64,000 nt of DNA, taken from positions 3,162,001-3,226,000 of the forward strand of contig NZ_CP090145.1 of the NCBI RefSeq assembly GCF_023008245.1, written 5' to 3'. The position numbers were made by a program, and so were the translations under genes. Below are positions 7,659-16,605 of this stretch, in pieces; positions within the stretch are counted from its first letter, which is position 1, and each line of letters begins with the position of its first letter. Below the pieces are notes generated by a model, which made no database searches, had not been told where the DNA came from, and saw only the letters and a list, made by a program, of their open reading frames with translations. Origin of the DNA: Flavobacterium sediminilitoris. GTDB taxonomy: Bacteria > Bacteroidota > Bacteroidia > Flavobacteriales > Flavobacteriaceae.

Positions 7659-8366
7659 TTATGCTAAATTTACACCAAATAAATATCCAACCATTGCTGT
7701 TAATCCCATTGCAATTGTTCCCCAAAAAGTGACTCTTAAAACGGCTTTAGTAATACTTGATCCACCTGTTTTTGCTGACAAAGCTCCTAAAATAATTAAG
7801 AAAAATATTGCAAAACCATAGAGATAATATTCCATACCTTTTAAAGGGAGAAAAAGTGTTACTAAGAAGGGTAAAATACCTCCTAAAGTGAAAGCTGCAC
7901 CAGAAGCTAATGCTGCTTGTAATGGATTTGCCTGATTAATTTCATTAATACCTAATTCATCTCTAACATGAGTCCCTAATGCATCATACTCTGTTAATTC
8001 TTTAGCTACAAGTAATGCTGTTTCTTTTTTTAATCCTCTATTTTGATAAATTTCTGCAAGTCTTTGTAATTCTTCTTCAGGCATTTCTTTTAACTCTAAT
8101 TTTTCTCTTTCAATATCTGCTTTTTCAACGTCTGTTTGAGAACAAACAGATACATATTCACCTGCGGACATTGACAAAGCTCCAGCTACTAAACCTGCTA
8201 AAGTTGCTAAAATAATAGACTCTCTTGTTGTACTAGCTGCTGCGATACCTATTGCTATACTTGAAGTTGATAAAATACCATCATTGGCTCCTAAAACAGC
8301 AGCTCTAAGCCAATTACTTCTATGAATGTAATGATTATCTAGGTAATCGTCTTTAGATTTATTCAT
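7659..8366 (-). CDS. VIT1/CCC1 family iron/manganese transporter
   Basis: Membrane transporter of the vacuolar iron transporter family (Fe2+ or Mn2+). The signature NWLRAAVLGANDGILSTSS opens the first helix and is followed by GALSMSAGEYVSVCSQ in the second, both diagnostic. A hydrophilic metal-binding-type loop rich in Glu (EREKLELKEMPEEELQRLAE) follows, then three more membrane segments. I start at MNKSKDDYLD (8366), giving 235 aa; an upstream extension to 8453 runs through the preceding gene. The ATG overlaps the stop region of the DUF2231-like gene by 8 nt, so the two are coupled. It ends the run of eight co-directional genes beginning at 13896. Confidence 0.88.
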   Translation of the reverse strand: MNKSKDDYLDNHYIHRSNWLRAAVLGANDGILSTSSIAIGIAAASTTRESIILATLAGLVAGALSMSAGEYVSVCSQTDVEKADIEREKLELKEMPEEELQRLAEIYQNRGLKKETALLVAKELTEYDALGTHVRDELGINEINQANPLQAALASGAAFTLGGILPFLVTLFLPLKGMEYYLYGFAIFFLIILGALSAKTGGSSITKAVLRVTFWGTIAMGLTAMVGYLFGVNLA

Positions 8367-8820
8367 TGTTATCATTAGTATTATTTTCACGAATTTCGGT
8401 ATGACGAATTTCTCCTCCAAAAGTTCCAACAGATTTTGACAAAAAAGCTGCAATTATTGATAGAACAAGTACTATATATGTAATATAAATTGTTTTTGGA
8501 TGTTTTCTTTTATTTAAAACTAAACCTACAATTGAAAATAATCCTAATCCATAAAGTACTTTCATAAATCCTTCAGCTAGTTCTTCATGTTCATGGATAA
8601 TTTTATGTGAAATACCTAATTCTTCTACAATATCTTCAGCTCCTTCACCTGTCATCATTGTTGCTTTTCCCATTATCATACAAATAATAAAAATGACATA
8701 AGCAGTATTAATCAGTATAGTTTGTTTTTTAATAATTCCATAAGTTAAAATTCCAATTCCAAAGAATAATCCAATTATAGGAAAATGATTGAATAACATG
8801 TGTAAATGTGCTTGATTCAT
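8359..8820 (-). CDS. DUF2231-like membrane protein
   Basis: A 153 aa protein with four predicted membrane helices (about 10-26, 35-53, 85-102, 108-127). The N-terminal HLHMLFNHFPIIG resembles the His-Phe-Pro motif of DUF2231 membrane proteins, whose function is unknown. A loop TGEGAEDIVEELG and a histidine cluster HKIIHEHEEL lie between helices 2 and 3, and GTFGGEIRHTEIR follows helix 4; the several His residues could bind metal or haem. It starts 4 nt after the kinase gene and overlaps the VIT gene, so it belongs to the operon. Family assignment is tentative. Confidence 0.7.
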   Translation of the reverse strand: MNQAHLHMLFNHFPIIGLFFGIGILTYGIIKKQTILINTAYVIFIICMIMGKATMMTGEGAEDIVEELGISHKIIHEHEELAEGFMKVLYGLGLFSIVGLVLNKRKHPKTIYITYIVLVLSIIAAFLSKSVGTFGGEIRHTEIRENNTNDNNE

Positions 8821-8824
8821 ATTT

Positions 8825-10213
8825 TTATTTTATAAATGTTAATATAATTGATGTTCCAATATTTTTTTTACTGCTAATTGCAATTTTAATATTTAATAAA
8901 TCGCATAGTCTTTTTACAATTGAAAGACCAATACCAGTTCCTTTTATTTCAGGATGTGATGTTGTATTAGCTCTATAGAATGAGTTATAAATTTTATCTA
9001 AATCTGTTTCATCTATTCCTATTCCAGAATCATTAATAACACAATTTATAGTGTTGTTTTCTTTTAATAAAAGAATCTCCAAATTAGACTTTTTTGTTGA
9101 ATATTTGATTGCATTTGAGATTAAATTACTAAAAATAATATCTAATGAATAACTATCTGATTTTGTATAGAAATTTTCTTTAAATTTTGTCTTAATTGAG
9201 ATATCTTTTTCTTTGATATCGTGTGAAAATCGTGATAAAATATCTAAAACCAGCGCATTAAGGTAGATTTTTTCTACTTTTAAATTTTGTTTTTGATTTT
9301 CAAATCGGGCTAAAAGTAATAATTGATCTACCATGTGATTTAATCGATCAACTTCTGAAATGCAAAAATTAATTTTTGATTCATATTCACTTTGATTTCT
9401 AGGTTTTCGAATTAAAACTTCCATGGTTCCTTTTATAACAGCTAAAGGTGTTCTCAATTCATGAGATGCATCTGAAGTAAATTGTTTTTCTCGTTCAACT
9501 GCATTTTCAATTCGATCTAATAGGTTATTAATGTCTTCAGAAAGTATGTATAATTCATCTTTATTTTGAGGTAATGGTATTCTTGTTTTTAAATTATCTT
9601 TTGTTATTTCTTTTGAAGTTTTAATGATTGCGCTTACTGGTTTTATACTTTTTCCTGCAAAAAATCGTGCAATTAAGAACAGAACTATAAGAATTATAGG
9701 AAATGAAATGAGTAAAATATCTTTAAGGATTTCAACAATTTCAAAGTCTTCTAAAGACATTGCAATAACAATATATCCTACTTTTTCATTTTTGTTTAAT
9801 ATTTCTTTTTGTGTTTGTCTTAAAGGAACTCCATTTAAAGAAGAGTTTATAAATTGGTCATTAAATGATTCGTTTAAAAGTTTAAGGTTTGAATTATTGA
9901 GATTTGGTGATTTATCAATTACTTGTTTATTATTATCATAGAATTCAACAAAAACGGGATTAACTTTAATAGAGTTATGTTCGCGAGCTCTCCATTGATC
10001 AACTTGTATTAAGTAAGTATTATTAATATCTATTTTAACGTCATCTAAATGTTTATAGAGTTCGTCCTTAATTTCATCATTTATATGTTGGTTTACACTA
10101 TATCTTACTATAGAATAAATAAACAGAAAAACAATTGCAATTAAAAAAGAGCCACTTACTAAATAATTAAAGGCTATTCTATTTTTAAAAGAAAAAGGAA
10201 AAATATTATTCAT
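8825..10213 (-). CDS. Two-component sensor histidine kinase
   Basis: Inner-membrane sensor kinase of 462 aa. It has TM1 at about 14-35, an extracytoplasmic sensor domain of about 125 residues, TM2 at about 164-185, then a HAMP linker. The H-box is SDASHELRTPL (phospho-acceptor His about 251), the N-box NLISNAIKYS, and the G-boxes DSGIGID and GTGIGLSIVKRL. Its start overlaps the response regulator by 8 nt, so the two form a cognate pair. Its place in a metal/flavin-type operon suggests it senses a metal or redox signal outside the cytoplasm; that is inference. Confidence 0.95.
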   Translation of the reverse strand: MNNIFPFSFKNRIAFNYLVSGSFLIAIVFLFIYSIVRYSVNQHINDEIKDELYKHLDDVKIDINNTYLIQVDQWRAREHNSIKVNPVFVEFYDNNKQVIDKSPNLNNSNLKLLNESFNDQFINSSLNGVPLRQTQKEILNKNEKVGYIVIAMSLEDFEIVEILKDILLISFPIILIVLFLIARFFAGKSIKPVSAIIKTSKEITKDNLKTRIPLPQNKDELYILSEDINNLLDRIENAVEREKQFTSDASHELRTPLAVIKGTMEVLIRKPRNQSEYESKINFCISEVDRLNHMVDQLLLLARFENQKQNLKVEKIYLNALVLDILSRFSHDIKEKDISIKTKFKENFYTKSDSYSLDIIFSNLISNAIKYSTKKSNLEILLLKENNTINCVINDSGIGIDETDLDKIYNSFYRANTTSHPEIKGTGIGLSIVKRLCDLLNIKIAISSKKNIGTSIILTFIK

Positions 10214-10868
10214 TTGCTATATATCCAACACCTCTAATTGTTTTTATAAGTTCTTGATCTTTAGTAAGGTTTAGTTTTTTACGAATAGCATTCATAAAAA
10301 CATCTATAACTCCAGTATCATATTCAAAATGGATGTTCCAAACATCTTCTATAATTTTATTTCTAGCACAAACAGTTCCTTTATTTTTAATTAAATATTC
10401 TAATAATTCAAATTCTCTTTGGGTTAAATACACTTCTGTATTATCAACAAAAACCTGAAACTTATTCTTATTCAATGTAATATTTCCGAGAGTAAGATTT
10501 TTAAGTTCTTTTTTATCTCTAAAATGGATTTTAATTCTTTCTAATAGTTCTTCAAAACTAAATGGTTTTTTAATATAATCATTAGCTCCTGATTTTAAAC
10601 CTTCTATTGTTTCTTGAACTGTATCTTTTGCTGTTAAAAAAATAATTGGTACTGTTGAATTTTCAATACGTATTGCTTTGCAAACATCAATTCCGTTCAT
10701 CATTGGCAACATCCAATCTAAAAGAATTAGATCAACTGGTAAAGAAAGTGCTTTTTCAAGTCCTTCTTTCCCATTCATTGCGTAAGAAACAGTATAATCT
10801 TCTTCTTCTAAACCTTGCTTTAGAAAATTAACAATTCCTTTTTCGTCTTCAATGATTAAAATATGCAT
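10206..10868 (-). CDS. OmpR/PhoB-family response regulator
   Basis: DNA-binding response regulator. The receiver domain (about 1-115) has the acidic pair in IIEDE, the phospho-acceptor Asp51 in LILLDWMLP and the conserved Lys in YIKKPF. The winged-helix C-terminal domain (about 128-220) has LTQREFELLEYL and IRGVGYI. I start at MHILIIEDE (10868); seven further upstream codons to 10889 run into the end of the DUF3570 gene. It is cotranscribed with its kinase. OmpR-type regulators bind tandem repeats spaced about one helical turn, which is what lies upstream of this operon (13964-14001). Confidence 0.95.
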   Translation of the reverse strand: MHILIIEDEKGIVNFLKQGLEEEDYTVSYAMNGKEGLEKALSLPVDLILLDWMLPMMNGIDVCKAIRIENSTVPIIFLTAKDTVQETIEGLKSGANDYIKKPFSFEELLERIKIHFRDKKELKNLTLGNITLNKNKFQVFVDNTEVYLTQREFELLEYLIKNKGTVCARNKIIEDVWNIHFEYDTGVIDVFMNAIRKKLNLTKDQELIKTIRGVGYIANE

Positions 10869-10878
10869 ATAAAAGTTA

Positions 10879-12192
10879 TTATTGAACAAATTTTATCCCA
10901 AAAAAAATAATATTAGCATCTAAACCATCACTTCTTTTATAATAATTATATCTCAAATCGATATTTTTAATTCCAAATTTCCAAATTTTAGCGCTTGTAA
11001 AAATGTCTGTATAGTTTACTCCAAATCCATATTGATTAGCATCAAAAGTAGATAAATCATAATCAGAAGTATAGTATTTTTCTGTTGATAAATGTGCTTC
11101 ATGAGGTGCAAAATATTTCGATTGATTTTGTGTATAATAGCGATACATTGGAAACACTGTAAATCTATCTGACAATTTAACTGGTAATTCTATAGATGCG
11201 GTATGTGATTTTATATCCCAATTGTCTGTATAATAACGATAATATGTTCGGATAACCAAGCGCTCATTAATATAATAATTTAACCTTGTTCCTATTGGTA
11301 GTTTAAAACGAGTGTCTGGTAAGCGTTCAATGTCATCGGCTAATTGAAATTCATTTATAAAAGAATCGTCAATATCTGAAAAATAAATTCTTTGATATGG
11401 TGTTGATAATAATCCTTGCTGCTGTAATACATCCAAAAATAATGAAAATTGGAGTTTTCTGGTTAATATTTGAGAGAAACTTAGTGAAACTGCATAAGAA
11501 TTTCTGTTTTTCTTTTCATGAAATGAGAATTTTTCTGGATTATAAATAGTGTTCCCTGTAATAGTAAAATTATTAAAAATCCCGCCATTTAAATTATTTC
11601 CGTTTGATACAAAATCTTGTAGTTCTTTTGGATAAATTGGACTCCATGTATCTAAATAAACATTTGCAGATAGATTTACTTCTGTATTTTTATCATTAAA
11701 AAGTTTAGTTAATCCACCTCCAAAACCTATTGATGAATAATCATATTCAATAGAGCCTGAAATATGTCCATTCCAAATAGTATTCCTATCATCTGAGCTA
11801 TGGCTATAATTAAGAACCAATGTAGTTAGAGCGTCTTGCGCAGATGCTCCTGAGGAAGCTTGCCATGGACTAGGTGTATTACTATCAAAAGGGTTAATAT
11901 TTCCTGAAGATGCTGATGAATAAGCAGAGATTCCTACATCTACAGTTAAGACATCATCATCATTTAATGGAACAGCTACTACAATTGTAGGAGTAATATC
12001 TGTTAAATCTTCCATACCTTTTCCTCCAGAAACTGCCGAATGTATTCCATCTTGCTTATAATAGCTAGCTAAAAAATCAACTTCAATACTTTCTAATACT
12101 CGTTTTTTATAAGTTATTTTAGTAGAGTCTTTTTCTTGCGAAAAAGAAAATAAGCTGATTAAGCACAAAAATAATACAATTTTATTTTTCAT
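10879..12192 (-). CDS. DUF3570 outer-membrane beta-barrel-like protein
   Basis: A 437 aa exported protein: signal peptide to about residue 19 (LISLFSFSQ), then repeated amphipathic strands such as NLSANVYLDTWSP and RLVIRTYYRYYTDNWDI ending in an aromatic-rich tail (IIFFGIKFVQ), as expected of an outer-membrane barrel. The segment VEVDFLASYYKQDG-like N-terminus and the SAVSGGKGMEDLTDITP stretch fit DUF3570. It is 8 nt after the DUF4266 gene and 10 nt before the response regulator. Genes of this family are known to neighbour DUF4266 and ApbE; function is unknown. Confidence 0.85.
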   Translation of the reverse strand: MKNKIVLFLCLISLFSFSQEKDSTKITYKKRVLESIEVDFLASYYKQDGIHSAVSGGKGMEDLTDITPTIVVAVPLNDDDVLTVDVGISAYSSASSGNINPFDSNTPSPWQASSGASAQDALTTLVLNYSHSSDDRNTIWNGHISGSIEYDYSSIGFGGGLTKLFNDKNTEVNLSANVYLDTWSPIYPKELQDFVSNGNNLNGGIFNNFTITGNTIYNPEKFSFHEKKNRNSYAVSLSFSQILTRKLQFSLFLDVLQQQGLLSTPYQRIYFSDIDDSFINEFQLADDIERLPDTRFKLPIGTRLNYYINERLVIRTYYRYYTDNWDIKSHTASIELPVKLSDRFTVFPMYRYYTQNQSKYFAPHEAHLSTEKYYTSDYDLSTFDANQYGFGVNYTDIFTSAKIWKFGIKNIDLRYNYYKRSDGLDANIIFFGIKFVQ

Positions 12193-12200
12193 ACGTGTTA

Positions 12201-12410
12201 TTAATTACATCCACAACCTCCACCTGTTTTTCCTCCATTGGCTCCAGCCGCAGCTTCACGATATACTTGAAAATTAGTTTCAAATCTTTCGGTTATTTTT
12301 GCTGACAGTTTCATATCTGGGTCATTGATATATTGTTTATCATATTCTTTGACTGTGTTACATGAATAACTAGATATTCCAAAAATTATAATGATTATTA
12401 TCTTTTTCAT
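12201..12410 (-). CDS. DUF4266 small lipoprotein
   Basis: A 69 aa lipoprotein: signal peptide MKKIIIIIIFGISSYSC with lipobox Cys17, then about 35 polar residues and a glycine-rich tail GANGGKTGGGCGCN. The paired cysteines in the last residues (CGC) are exposed on a flexible Gly-rich tail and could bind a metal, form a disulfide, or be modified. It sits 2 nt after apbE and 8 nt before DUF3570, so the products probably act together in the periplasm or outer membrane. DUF4266 function is not known to me. Confidence 0.87.
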   Translation of the reverse strand: MKKIIIIIIFGISSYSCNTVKEYDKQYINDPDMKLSAKITERFETNFQVYREAAAGANGGKTGGGCGCN

Positions 12411-12412
12411 TT

Positions 12413-13417
12413 TTATTGTTGTTTTAGATCAATGTTTTTTGAATAATGTATGTTTCCTTGATCGTCTATAATGATACATTCAATTCCATTAATTTGATTA
12501 ATTAGGTTTAAGCCTACTTCTACTCCTAGAACAAAAACTCCTGTTGCAATTGCATCAGCTATTTCAGTTTGCTTTGCAAAAACGGATACGCTTATAATTC
12601 CTGAAGCTGGATAACCTGTTCTTGGATCTATAATATGTGAGTATCTTTTCTTATTAAAAGTAACATATTTTTCATAATTTCCAGAGGTCTCTACTGCGCT
12701 ATCAATGAGAGGAAAAGTAGCAAAAACTTTATTTTTGTTTAAAGGATTCACAATAGCTACAGTCCATGGTTTCCCATCTAATTGATAACCCCAAGTATTA
12801 ATGTCTCCAGAAACATTTACAATTCCAGATGTACATCCCTTTTCTTGTAGTAAAAACTTAATTTTATCAGCTATGTAACCTTGACCTATTCCTCCAAGAC
12901 CTAATTTCATCCCTTTATCCTTTAAAAAGATAGTTTTATGGTTATTATCTAGAATGATTTTATGATATCCTACTCGTTCAACTGATTTCTTTATTTCGTC
13001 ACTTGTAGGCATTACTTTCATTGTTCCATCAAATTTCCAAATTTTATCCATTGAGGCATAACTTATGTCAAAGGCACCGTTTGTTAGTTTAGAAACTTTC
13101 ACTGCTCTTTCAACTAAATCATAGACTTCATTGTCAACTTTAATAGGTTGTATTCCTGCATTTTGATTTACTCTTGATATTTGAGATGATGGAATCCAAT
13201 CTGAAATTAAATTTTCAATTCTTTTAACTTCGTTAATAGCTAAATCACAGTATTGATTTCCTTCAACGGAGTCCATTGCAACTACAATAATTTCAAAAGG
13301 ACTTCCTAATAGAGAAGCTTTCTTTTTATGCACTATTTGTCCACTCAAGTAGTTAGAAATGAGAATTAAGAATAAAAAAATAGTTTTACTTTTAAGGTTG
13401 CCTCGTATTGTATCCAT
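12413..13417 (-). CDS. apbE: FAD:protein FMN transferase (ApbE family)
   Basis: Extracytoplasmic enzyme that transfers FMN from FAD to a Thr/Ser of target proteins, or acts as an FAD pyrophosphatase. It has 334 aa with an N-terminal membrane/signal segment (about 11-27). Family motifs are visible: the Asp-containing MDKIWKFDG region, LGLGGIGQGYIADK, VNVSGDINTWG (FAD binding), SHIIDPRTGYPA and the metal-site ADAIATGVFVLG near the C-terminus. I find no protein in this window with the usual Ser/Thr-Gly-Ala-Thr acceptor motif, so its substrate is unknown. It lies between the thioredoxin-like and DUF4266 genes. Confidence 0.92.
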   Translation of the reverse strand: MDTIRGNLKSKTIFLFLILISNYLSGQIVHKKKASLLGSPFEIIVVAMDSVEGNQYCDLAINEVKRIENLISDWIPSSQISRVNQNAGIQPIKVDNEVYDLVERAVKVSKLTNGAFDISYASMDKIWKFDGTMKVMPTSDEIKKSVERVGYHKIILDNNHKTIFLKDKGMKLGLGGIGQGYIADKIKFLLQEKGCTSGIVNVSGDINTWGYQLDGKPWTVAIVNPLNKNKVFATFPLIDSAVETSGNYEKYVTFNKKRYSHIIDPRTGYPASGIISVSVFAKQTEIADAIATGVFVLGVEVGLNLINQINGIECIIIDDQGNIHYSKNIDLKQQ

Positions 13418-13464
13418 ATTTTGTGTAAAGCATTAAAAATGATAAAAAGAAATCAATACTATAT

Positions 13465-13896
13465 TTATTTTAAGGATTCAATTATTTTAATATATTCATT
13501 TGGACTCACATTTTTATATCCTACCTTTCCTAGCGCTTTCCCTTTTGAGTTTAATAAAATTACTAGTGGGAAACTTCCTTCGTTATTATATTTTTCAGCT
13601 AATTCTCTATTATGATTCATTTGTTCTTCAGATAGTTTATTTGCTGTTTTTCTTGGGAAATTTACTTTTACTAAAATCCATTTTTCAGAAGATTCTTTTT
13701 TAAATTCTTCAGATTGCCATATTTGCTTATCTAGTTTTATACAAGGAGCACACCAGTCTGATCCTGAAAATACCATTACAATATCCTTACCTTCAGTTTC
13801 AGCAATTTTTTTTGCTTCTTCAAAATTATACTTCCAATCTTGAGAAAAACTAAAATTTGAAATAAGCATGATTAAAATTAATACTATCTTTTTCAT
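13465..13896 (-). CDS. Thioredoxin-like periplasmic protein
   Basis: A 143 aa protein with a signal peptide (about 1-18, ending NFSFSQ) and a thioredoxin fold. The redox motif is WCAPC in FSGSDWCAPCIKLDKQIW at about 47-55, and a cis-Pro-type strand GSFPLVILLNSKGKALGKVGY follows. It resembles the DUF255/thioredoxin_7 group. It opens the eight-gene operon, 47 nt before apbE, and could keep the C-terminal CGC of the DUF4266 lipoprotein reduced; that link is inference. Confidence 0.88.
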   Translation of the reverse strand: MKKIVLILIMLISNFSFSQDWKYNFEEAKKIAETEGKDIVMVFSGSDWCAPCIKLDKQIWQSEEFKKESSEKWILVKVNFPRKTANKLSEEQMNHNRELAEKYNNEGSFPLVILLNSKGKALGKVGYKNVSPNEYIKIIESLK

Positions 13897-13916: not shown

Positions 13917-14001
13917 CAAATTAAACTCTTTTTTTAAGACTTTGTTGCTTTGGAAAACATAAATTAAGCGAAACTTAAGAATGTATTAAGTGATTTTTAA
14001 G
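13917..14001 (-). promoter_or_regulatory. Predicted response-regulator binding repeats and promoter
   Basis: Four copies of TTAAG (plus strand; CTTAA on the transcribed strand) start at 13964, 13975, 13986 and 13997, exactly 11 bp apart. This fits the one-turn spacing of OmpR/PhoB-type operators. A further TTAAG lies out of phase at 13934. A near-consensus -7 box (TTAATTTG, minus strand, 13917-13924) stands about 40 bp closer to the gene, putting the repeats in a typical activator position. The operon encodes its own OmpR-type regulator, so autoregulation is likely. Confidence 0.65.
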
Positions 14002-14048: not shown

Positions 14049-14583
14049 ATGCATAAACATCTTACACCATTTCAAAATCTTCTTATATTTTATTTAATAA
14101 TTAATTTTATCTTGAGGATTTTTCTATGGTTGTACTTATTATTTTTATCAAATTTTAAATTCAATAACTATTTGTTTTAATAATGATTCAAAATATGGTT
14201 AGTTAATTTTTCTTTTGGAATGAATTTGGTGTGCGTTATAATTTTATTGCAGTAGATTATTCAATTTATGCTAATACTGTAATTGGAAATATAATGGAAT
14301 CTTATCAAGTTGTTCCATTAGTATTGGTTTAATTACTTTTATTGCAACTTGTCAGGATTTAGGTTATATAAAGAATGATGTTTTAACTATTATTTCTCCT
14401 GTAAAAGAATCTAAATAATTTAGCTTAAAACAACTTGAGAATTCTAAAGTTTCTTCAAGTTTTAATATATATTATGAAGAGAAATTAATGAAGGTTAGCA
14501 ATAATGATTTAACTAAAGAATGTACTTCTTTTTATCAAACTGCAACTTATTCATTAAAAAACAAACTGTATCAAAAATTATAA
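14049..14583 (+). pseudogene. Decayed LTA synthase-type sulfatase gene
   Basis: Remnants of one plus-strand gene remain in broken frames. The first is MHKHLTPFQNLLIFYLII plus a membrane segment, stopping after about 44 codons. The second is WNEFGVRYNFIAVDYSIYAN followed by TVIGNIMESYQV, characteristic of the membrane domain of flavobacterial LTA synthase/alkaline phosphatase superfamily proteins. The third is a C-terminal piece resembling CTSFYQTATYSLKNKLYQ. The intact family is about 640 aa, so most of the catalytic domain is deleted. It ends overlapping the convergent VWA-like gene. Recognition is from family memory. Confidence 0.65.
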
Positions 14584-16605
14584 CAATCCGTTATATTTTC
14601 GCGTAAACCATTCTATTGAAAGTAAAGCAACAATAAAAATTAATAACCATTTCCAATCAATTAATGGTGTTTTTTTAATTATTTCTTTTTCAATAGGTAG
14701 ATATTTATCAGTATCTTTTAATGATTTAATTAGCATATCTAATTGATTTGGATAATAGACTTTTCCTGCTGTATTTATAGCCAATTGTTCTAGTCTTGTT
14801 CTATCAGGGTTTACAAATTGCTTTTCAAAATCAAATTCTAATATTTCGAAACTACCTGAAAAAGAGCTGTTTGATTCTTTTTCTTTAACAGTGAAATTAT
14901 AAGTTCCTTTTTCTAAATTATCAAATGCTACTTTGTAATCTAAGTTTGATTTTAAAAAATTATATGATTTTGTAGCTTTCGTTTCTTTATTAGTGAGTTG
15001 TATTGTTAATTGAGCATTTTCATCTAACTCATAATTTTTATTGAAATATTGAGCTGTTATTTCTATTAATTCACCTGAATTATAAAAACTTTCATAGTCA
15101 ACAACTAAGGATTTTTTGGATGAATTTGAGTTTAAATATTGAATTAATTTATCTATAAATAAATCAAAATCATTAAAAGATTTTTTCTTCAGATATGTTT
15201 CCATTCTCCATTTCCAAATATTTTCACCAAACAAATATGCTTTTCTTTGTTTTCCGTTTTCAACAAAAGCTAATAATGGGTTTCCTGTTTCAATATTTCG
15301 AATAGTTGCATCTAAAAAAGTTGTAATTGTTGTTTTTGGAGTAATCGTTCCAAAACTATTTTCTAGTGGTGAAAAAGAGCTAAAACCAATATTATCTTGT
15401 GAAAAAAGATTAAATCCAGAATTGTATTTGGCAAAATAATTTTCTTTTTTCCTTAACATTTTATAAGTAAAATCAGATTGATTTTGGTTTAAAAAATTAA
15501 AATCTGTATTTGTTCCTGTTATAATAAATGTACTTAATTGAACGGATTTATTTTGCTCAATAATTCCTTTAAAAGTAGAATTGGGTTGGTATAAAATCAA
15601 AATATTATAATCTAGTAAGTTTTTGATTTCGTTTGGTTTAAATATATTTACCTTACGTTGTTCATTAACTTCTATACTTCTTTTTAAAGTTCCTAAATCA
15701 GGATGATTATTATCTGATATAATAGCGATTTCAGTTCTTTGATCAATGATTTCTACAGCAAAATTTTTACTGTTATTAATTTTGTTTTTTTCTTGTATTG
15801 ATGAAGTTATTGATGCTTTATATTTTTGAACTCCAATACTTGAAGCATCTAATAATACTTGAATTGATTTTGCTTTTTCTTTAGCTGAAAAGGAAACATT
15901 TTGTTTATGAATAATTTGGTTTCCATTTTGAATTGAAAAAGTTGTTGTTAAGGATTCATTTCCATTATATTGTAGAAATACTTCTACAGGAAATTTATTT
16001 TTTAGAAAAGCATACTTATTTACATTGATTTGATTGATTTTTAAGTCAAAAACAGAAGTTGTATCTCCTAAAACAACAGGGAAAACAGATGAATTATCTT
16101 GAAAACTATATACATAATCATTCCCTTTTGTTTGATTTCCATCGGTGAATAAAATTACTGGATAATTTGTGTTTCTGTAAAGTTGTTTTAGATTTTTAGC
16201 CACATTATCAATGTAAGTTTGCTTTCCTAAAAAATCTAATTTTTCTAAGTTTTTAAATTCTTCATCAAAAGAATATAATTGAATATCATATTTTTGATTT
16301 AAGGCTTTATCTTCACTTATCTTAGTATAAAAATCAGTTTTAAGATTAGAATCATTCAATTCTTTTATTGATTCAGAATTATCAATAACAATGGGTAATG
16401 GTGTTTTTTTAATTTCAAATGATTTTCTAGTTATAATTGGATTTATCAATAGTAAAAGAACTCCAAATAAGGCTAAAAAACGTAAAAAAGCTAGAAATAA
16501 ACTTAATTTTGATTTATTTCTAGCTTTATAATAATATTGGAAATAAGACAAACCAGCAGCTATAAATACTGATAAAATAAGAAGTAAAATAGTGCTTGTG
16601 GTCAT
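14578..16605 (-). CDS. VWA-like membrane protein
   Basis: A 675 aa protein anchored at both ends: two N-terminal helices (about 4-24 and 37-55) and one near the C-terminus (WKWLLIFIVALLSIEW). After the second helix LPIVIDNSESI and later PVILFTDGNQTKG form the sequence pattern of a von Willebrand A-like domain with partial MIDAS residues (DNSES). The rest is predicted extracytoplasmic, with beta-rich segments. Such genes are found after fabG in Flavobacteriaceae; function is unknown. It begins 31 nt after fabG and is probably cotranscribed. Confidence 0.75.
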   Translation of the reverse strand: MTTSTILLLILSVFIAAGLSYFQYYYKARNKSKLSLFLAFLRFLALFGVLLLLINPIITRKSFEIKKTPLPIVIDNSESIKELNDSNLKTDFYTKISEDKALNQKYDIQLYSFDEEFKNLEKLDFLGKQTYIDNVAKNLKQLYRNTNYPVILFTDGNQTKGNDYVYSFQDNSSVFPVVLGDTTSVFDLKINQINVNKYAFLKNKFPVEVFLQYNGNESLTTTFSIQNGNQIIHKQNVSFSAKEKAKSIQVLLDASSIGVQKYKASITSSIQEKNKINNSKNFAVEIIDQRTEIAIISDNNHPDLGTLKRSIEVNEQRKVNIFKPNEIKNLLDYNILILYQPNSTFKGIIEQNKSVQLSTFIITGTNTDFNFLNQNQSDFTYKMLRKKENYFAKYNSGFNLFSQDNIGFSSFSPLENSFGTITPKTTITTFLDATIRNIETGNPLLAFVENGKQRKAYLFGENIWKWRMETYLKKKSFNDFDLFIDKLIQYLNSNSSKKSLVVDYESFYNSGELIEITAQYFNKNYELDENAQLTIQLTNKETKATKSYNFLKSNLDYKVAFDNLEKGTYNFTVKEKESNSSFSGSFEILEFDFEKQFVNPDRTRLEQLAINTAGKVYYPNQLDMLIKSLKDTDKYLPIEKEIIKKTPLIDWKWLLIFIVALLSIEWFTRKYNGLL

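Follow-up and report, generated by a model that had tools for sequence, protein, structure and literature searches.

The Operon and Its Gene Products

Eight genes occupy the minus strand from position 13896 down to 7659 of a 64,000-nucleotide (nt) stretch of the Flavobacterium sediminilitoris genome (contig NZ_CP090145.1, positions 3,162,001 to 3,226,000; referred to here as the window, in whose numbering coordinates are given), and their gene content firmly places them in the flavinylation system formed by ApbE, DUF3570, DUF4266 and a thioredoxin (Trx)-like protein. A preliminary description of this DNA had reported eight same-strand genes with gaps of 2–47 nt and two 8-nt overlaps, a layout that the open reading frame (ORF) calls bear out: the neighbor gaps or overlaps are all 47 nt or less and, from the Trx-like gene to VIT1, run 47, 2, 8 and 7 nt, an 8-nt overlap, 4 nt and a further 8-nt overlap. 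The Trx-like gene is separated from the upstream ORF (14578-16605) by 681 nt, and hisG lies downstream of the operon. Every label in the operon passes its curated Pfam cut-off except that of DUF2231.

The first gene (13465-13896) encodes a Trx-like protein of 143 amino acids (aa) with a WCAPC active site and an N-terminal signal-like stretch; it matches PF13899 (1.3e-11; 44.9 bits vs. a cut-off of 27) and also exceeds the cut-off of PF13098, while a DsbH-like NCBIfam model scored below its own. It is followed by ApbE, the flavin adenine dinucleotide (FAD):protein flavin mononucleotide (FMN) transferase (12413-13417; 334 aa; PF02424, 4.5e-82), which aligns with PDB 7esa at 1.7e-43. The DUF4266 protein (12201-12410; 69 aa; PF14086, 2.6e-20) has a lipoprotein-like N-terminus and ends in GGGCGCN. 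A C-x-C motif lies within four residues of the end in 105/105 relatives of this protein, 78 of which also carry a lipobox-like pattern in a crude search. DUF3570 (10879-12192; 437 aa; PF12094, 1e-37) completes the core and is succeeded by an OmpR/CzcR-like response regulator (10206-10871, counted from ATG; 221 aa; Response_reg and Trans_reg_C), a sensor histidine kinase (8825-10213; 462 aa; HAMP, HisKA and HATPase_c), a DUF2231-like four-helix membrane protein (8359-8820; 153 aa) and a divalent-metal transporter of the VIT1/CCC1 family (7659-8366, counted from ATG; 235 aa; PF01988, 7.1e-65).

A whole-genome search of the host returned one DUF4266 match, one VIT1 match and two ApbE matches. The second ApbE adjoins an ORF that we take to be NqrF-like, and if this label is right, the operon ApbE looks dedicated to DUF3570. 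No DsbD is found in the operon cluster; the sole DsbD_TM match of the genome, an ORF of 688 aa, lies at C1:3499196, approximately 325 kb away.

Relationship to Published Flavinylation Systems

In the portion of Meheust et al. (2021; PMC8238504) drawn on here, two sites in DUF3570 of Chlorobium luteolum are shown to receive flavin from ApbE, and gene clusters uniting ApbE, DUF3570, Trx-like PF13899 and a DUF4266 protein with a C-terminal CxC are described as "DsbD systems." The same portion counts 227 DUF3570-bearing clusters with DsbD and 316 four-gene clusters without a neighboring DsbD, and reports VIT1 in 25 clusters, for which iron assimilation was suggested. DUF3570, presented in the preliminary description as lacking an assigned function, is thus a demonstrated ApbE substrate, and the gene combination, there thought undescribed, had already been reported as far as the core and VIT1 are concerned. 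Because both the four-gene core and VIT1-bearing clusters have been published, the operon is not new as a kind. In a 2024 mSystems paper (PMC11334425), DUF3570 is absent from the main text as far as that text was available.

The operon shares with the published clusters all four core families and the CxC tail of DUF4266; VIT1 is present as in 25 of them, and a neighboring DsbD is lacking as in 316. Unlike those clusters, it is joined to a two-component pair and a DUF2231-like membrane protein, and sister species add a resistance-nodulation-division (RND) efflux cassette; moreover, the flavin acceptor motif is here partly [S/T]SAS, and the barrel model sets the flavins at the outer end. It is the control system, the predicted surface-side flavins and the ties to metal export that look new.

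The Predicted DUF3570 Barrel and Its Candidate Acceptor Sites

DUF3570 is predicted to be an outer-membrane barrel. Its AlphaFold2 model has 16 strands, as counted on the DSSP line, and shows the hallmarks of such barrels, namely an even strand number, with short turns at one end and long loops at the opposite end; when compared with the PDB, all 50 matches listed were outer-membrane barrels. Two conserved serines, S95 (in SSAS) and S117 (in SGAS), are the predicted acceptors, and both are placed at the extracellular end of the model, with S95 pointing into the barrel lumen.

According to the parts consulted of a review of ApbE (PMC12052999), the flavinylation motif is D-x-x-[S/T]-G-A-[S/T], the last residue being the acceptor. 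Both acceptor places are conserved in an alignment of 69 rows, comprising 62 of the 113 listed locus DUF3570 sequences and seven database proteins, the window's row included, with the divergent L161 and L164 left outside; the window itself has one strict motif (SGAS) and one SSAS. Many relatives in the range L112-L160 have [S/T]SAS instead of [S/T]GA[S/T] at both places, and strict-motif searches therefore miss these.

Conservation and Metal-Gene Neighbors

DUF4266 was found in 113/395 genomes of a phylum sample. The gene-order set comprises 54 places outside the family f18 (50 genomes, plus the window's own kept apart) and six places in 6/62 genomes of f18, the other 56 of which were not fetched; judged from gene content, f18 is probably Chlorobiaceae. 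Neighbor labels at the 54 loci were set by similarity, and some neighbors lie on the opposite strand. Within 10 kb of DUF4266 at these loci, ApbE and DUF3570 are each present at 52/54 and the Trx-like gene at 45/54, so chance does not explain why the first four genes stand together. The same distance takes in a VIT-family gene at 19 loci, an RND pump at 15, an RND adaptor at 13, a Rieske protein at 12 and a cytochrome b561-like protein at six (four on the opposite strand), and a DsbD-like gene lies near the core at 5/6 of the f18 loci looked at. The Rieske label is confirmed by Pfam in three examples, and the b561 and Haem_bd labels in one each.

Of 51 DUF4266-bearing genomes searched in full, 34 have VIT1, and in 21 it sits no more than 11.5 kb from DUF4266, where 0.24 would be expected; in these 21 genomes, which span seven genera and five families, the distance is 1.6 to 10.5 kb, and one of them (G021) has a stop inside the VIT1 match. 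This count used 43 of 46 rows, the second pieces of three split matches having been dropped. RND pumps of the CzcA/CusA class (E of 1e-150 or better) gave 139 matches in 49/51 genomes and fall within 11.5 kb of DUF4266 in 14/51, against an expectation of 0.78; the looser RND label used for the 54 loci is wider than the stricter TIGR00914 search, which does not locate the pump there in at least one case (L148). The corresponding Poisson values, 1e-33 for VIT1 and 2e-13 for RND, assume independent genomes and are overstated because related genomes are not independent, so that the spread over families and the varied gene orders make the better argument. The proposal of the preliminary description that an envelope redox system stands beside metal handling is supported by these counts. 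As for the co-occurrence it called for, the four core genes and VIT1 do recur, but the full set of eight does not form a single conserved block.

A small Rieske-like protein is encoded directly upstream of Trx at 11 loci (L116, L120, L133, L141, L143, L145, L148, L150, L153, L155 and L156), Pfam-confirmed for L116, L143 and L150 and assigned by similarity for the remainder; in L143 and L145, cytochrome b561-like and VIT-family genes are also present there. These Rieske-like and b561-like neighbors suggest quinol as another electron source and, taken with the DsbD-like neighbors in other lineages, make the electron source look interchangeable. In L160, L162, L163 and L165, a protein of 218-226 aa is encoded between DUF3570 and ApbE, with a NusG_II match on L160. 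Three contigs titled Bifidobacterium breve, Limnohabitans and Nitrotoga (L052, L067 and L035) bear Flavobacterium-type loci, and their metagenome-assembled genome (MAG) bins look contaminated or misnamed.

The Two-Component Pair and a Candidate Binding Site

The best NCBIfam model for the response regulator is TIGR01387 (CzcR/SilR/CopR type; 202.8 bits, under the cut-off of 279.2), and that for the kinase is TIGR01386 (CzcS/SilS/CopS type; 200.3 bits, under 292.55). The PmrA and PmrB models also remained under cut-off (141.9 vs. 330 and 147.8 vs. 314 bits). The pair is thus like CzcRS/CusRS in its best models, yet under every curated cut-off looked at. The sensor region of the kinase has conserved W-x2-REHN-x3-VNPVF and KSPNLK-like stretches.

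Upstream of the operon, four CTTAA copies at 11-bp steps (13964..14001, minus strand) lie between -105 and -68 relative to the Trx start, in what may be the operon promoter region. Repeats of 11 bp suit OmpR-type regulators, and the array is likely a candidate site for the response regulator, as judged from sequence. The direct repeats also resemble those of PmrAB, since the Salmonella PmrA half-site repeat is given as YTTAAK in the part of PMC10927774 used here. Genome-wide, CTTAA-N6-CTTAA has 18 matches, whereas the reversed pattern has 48; the operon array accounts for three of the 18 and is the sole four-copy array among them. A pair occurs within 400 bp upstream at 10/17 loci with a regulator downstream of Trx vs. 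2/41 others (Fisher 1.8e-5, with relatives that are not independent), a count that leaves out the window's own copy (L001) and includes one Trx place twice among the 41 (L029 = L118). Elsewhere in the genome, a further pair (C1:2877196) is found approximately 60 bp before a small ORF preceding the CzcA-class pump gene, in the opposite orientation; that pump gene, the genome's one of its class, is followed by an adaptor-like ORF and a P-type ATPase-like ORF (L184, 9198-13547).

The Metal Transporters and Apparent Loss of an RND Pump

The VIT1 family moves Fe2+ or Mn2+ out of the cytosol. The window protein scores 219.2 bits against PF01988 (cut-off 28.1) and aligns with PDB 6iu3, a VIT1, at 6.4e-17. 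In both respects it is like the VIT1/MbfA exporters, and at the corresponding position some relatives encode a long VIT form; unlike those exporters, it is encoded together with an envelope flavin chain in one operon.

The DUF2231-like protein reaches 17.8 bits (E 0.0035) against PF09990, under the cut-off of 26.4, and hence bears the "-like" label only. Its model consists of long helices with a predicted local distance difference test (pLDDT) value of 86.3, and it has hydrophobic stretches at residues 13-31, 35-55, 84-104 and 112-132. Loops 30-36 and 102-112 are basic, while conserved His and Glu residues (H5, H7, H12, E62, E66, H76, H78, E79, E80, E83, E137, H140 and E142) lie together on the other side, which is predicted to be periplasmic because of the basic loops and the positive-inside rule. 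A scan for this protein gave 79 loci, 34 of which have DUF3570 within 10 kb, and the gene just upstream encodes an RND adaptor at 26, a long-VIT-form-like protein at 19, the kinase at 15 and VIT at seven. It is found within 10 kb of DUF4266 at at least 3/54 loci, a lower bound, as several fetched stretches end before the gene. In L040 (1-4944), a low-coverage MAG contig, a relative of the 675-aa gene is directly followed by DUF2231-like and VIT1 genes without those from Trx to the kinase, an arrangement that would reflect either a deletion or a misassembly.

In the sister-species loci L009, L017 and L024, the order is DUF4266, DUF3570, regulator, kinase, a small protein, an RND pump (a TolC fusion of 1445 aa), its adaptor and DUF2231-like, followed by VIT in L009 and L024 and ending with hisG in all three. 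The RND pump is missing from the window operon. The kinase tree comprises 60 rows, 58 of them different; an RND gene follows within 2.5 kb downstream in 40 of the 60, and the window kinase, on a long branch, belongs to a supported set of five (99/97) together with four RND-bearing rows. The genome's one CzcA/CusA-class match (C1:2877697) shares 47-48% identity with the pumps of L004, L009 and L024; these three show 73-94% identity among themselves and with their counterparts in L010, L114 and L122. Because the kinase relatives keep the pump and the remaining pump of the genome is only 47-48% identical, the window operon is read as a shortened form, which appears, from these sequence comparisons, to have lost the RND pump and adaptor kept by sister species.

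The L009 pump has ZneA as its best score and carries a DFG-x3-DGA stretch as in ZneA, not the CusA one. This likeness to ZneA and CzcA, along with the CzcR/SilR/CopR and CzcS/SilS/CopS types of the below-cut-off regulator and kinase models, would fit Zn, Co, Cd or Cu as the metal concerned, in place of Fe or Mn. We regard this as unlikely, as VIT1 is near the core in more genomes than the pump is (21/51 vs. 14/51) and the window operon has no such pump; the excess divalent metal that the operon would handle is most likely Fe2+ or Mn2+.

Gene order also bears on whether the operon is one functional unit. Two units could share a transcript, with a metal unit of regulator, kinase, DUF2231-like protein and VIT1 borrowing the promoter of the flavin core: in L025 and L029 a regulator-kinase-to-DUF2231-like unit stands beside the core on the opposite strand, and an RND adaptor or VIT-family gene is just upstream of DUF2231-like at 52/79 loci. 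However, a Trx-like gene still heads the regulator-kinase unit in L025 and L029, and the CTTAA boxes of the window precede Trx, the first gene of the whole operon, so we consider this arrangement rather improbable.

P-type ATPase genes are found at four distinct places (L025, L029 = L118, L124 and L152), with a PMR1-type model as the best, below-cut-off fit in the three examples searched. In the iron assimilation suggested by Meheust et al. (PMC8238504, in the part cited above), to which the position of VIT1 beside the core lends itself, the flavin-thiol chain would reduce ferric iron outside the cell and VIT1 would import Fe2+. The linked transporters, however, belong to exporter families (VIT1, the CzcA/ZneA-like RND pump with its adaptor and, at some loci, the PMR1-like P-type ATPase) and thus argue against uptake, and the best regulator and kinase models are of metal-efflux type, though below cut-off. 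Assimilation is accordingly a distinctly doubtful reading.

Proposed Function and Mechanism

Our preferred reading, held at slightly less than an even chance, is that this is a regulated operon for metal stress in the envelope, with electrons passing through Trx, the CGC tail and the FMN-bearing barrel beside a divalent-metal exporter. ApbE would fix FMN on DUF3570, as shown for the Chlorobium relative, and the periplasmic Trx would be reduced by the DsbD encoded elsewhere in the genome. Trx may then reduce the DUF4266 lipoprotein at its CGC tail; acting as a flexible shuttle in trans, DUF4266 would in turn reduce the barrel flavins through this tail. These flavins might hand electrons on to oxidized metal on the cell surface or close to it, which would keep exported metal soluble and let it leave the envelope. 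The kinase would sense metal or metal damage and the regulator would bind the CTTAA array, while in sister species the RND pump would complete the efflux route.

The postulated shuttle is comparable to that of Erv-family sulfhydryl oxidases, in which, according to the part of PMC3509050 used here, flexible loops or tails bear shuttle disulfides in motifs such as C-x-C that serve a flavin enzyme. Unlike in Erv, a separate lipoprotein, DUF4266, carries the tail, and the flavin would be FMN bound covalently to a barrel; the comparison is an analogy of working only, and kinship is not part of it. In its most specific form, the proposal is a surface-opening thiol-to-flavin conduit, a flavinylated outer-membrane pore with one FMN in the lumen and one on an outer loop, which is fed by the CGC tail and keeps exported Fe or Mn reduced for removal by RND or VIT under two-component control through a PmrA-like CTTAA array; we would call this version speculative and on balance improbable.

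Several observations weigh against the metal-stress reading. VIT1 is not within 11.5 kb of DUF4266 in 30/51 genomes, 17 of which have no VIT1 match at all, and a two-component pair directly follows DUF3570 at 8/20 places in the same genus and 0/34 others. At least as many CTTAA pairs (three) arose in 7/100 window shuffles, so the count alone is weak and the regulator-linked contrast carries more. In the long VIT form, the N-terminal half has no Pfam match, and "MbfA-like" is our own reading. At the barrel, site 1 (SSAS) has neither the consensus Gly nor the Asp, site 2 lies in a low-confidence model stretch (114-118, pLDDT under 50), and a surface flavin would require DUF4266 or another carrier to reach it. 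Finally, a VIT-family gene is absent within 10 kb at 35/54 loci, which would also be expected if the core served envelope disulfide or general respiratory electron flow and the metal genes were fellow travelers; the Rieske (12/54) and b561-like (6/54) neighbors and the DsbD-like genes at 5/6 f18 loci point the same way. Against this, the core recurs with VIT1 in five families and also with RND pumps, in differing gene orders, which leaves a core without a metal link a serious but minority possibility.

Adjacent Features

Beyond the operon and before hisG, the minus strand at 7558-7442 holds an ORF, MFTNKLHHHHHLNHARARQ (read by eye), followed by a strong stem with a T-run. The stem has a fold z-score of -6.3 and is a terminator-like site. 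No Rfam family fitted this region; ORF and stem together look like a his-operon leader peptide and attenuator.

Implications

Overall, the operon brings a flavin chain together with a regulator, a candidate binding site and transporters from metal-exporter families. If the proposed mechanism is true, a heme-free, flavin-bearing outer-membrane conduit would be an unusual electron route across that membrane. The links within the operon, together with the barrel model, make the metal, the direction of the electrons and the surface exposure of the flavins testable in a culturable Flavobacterium.

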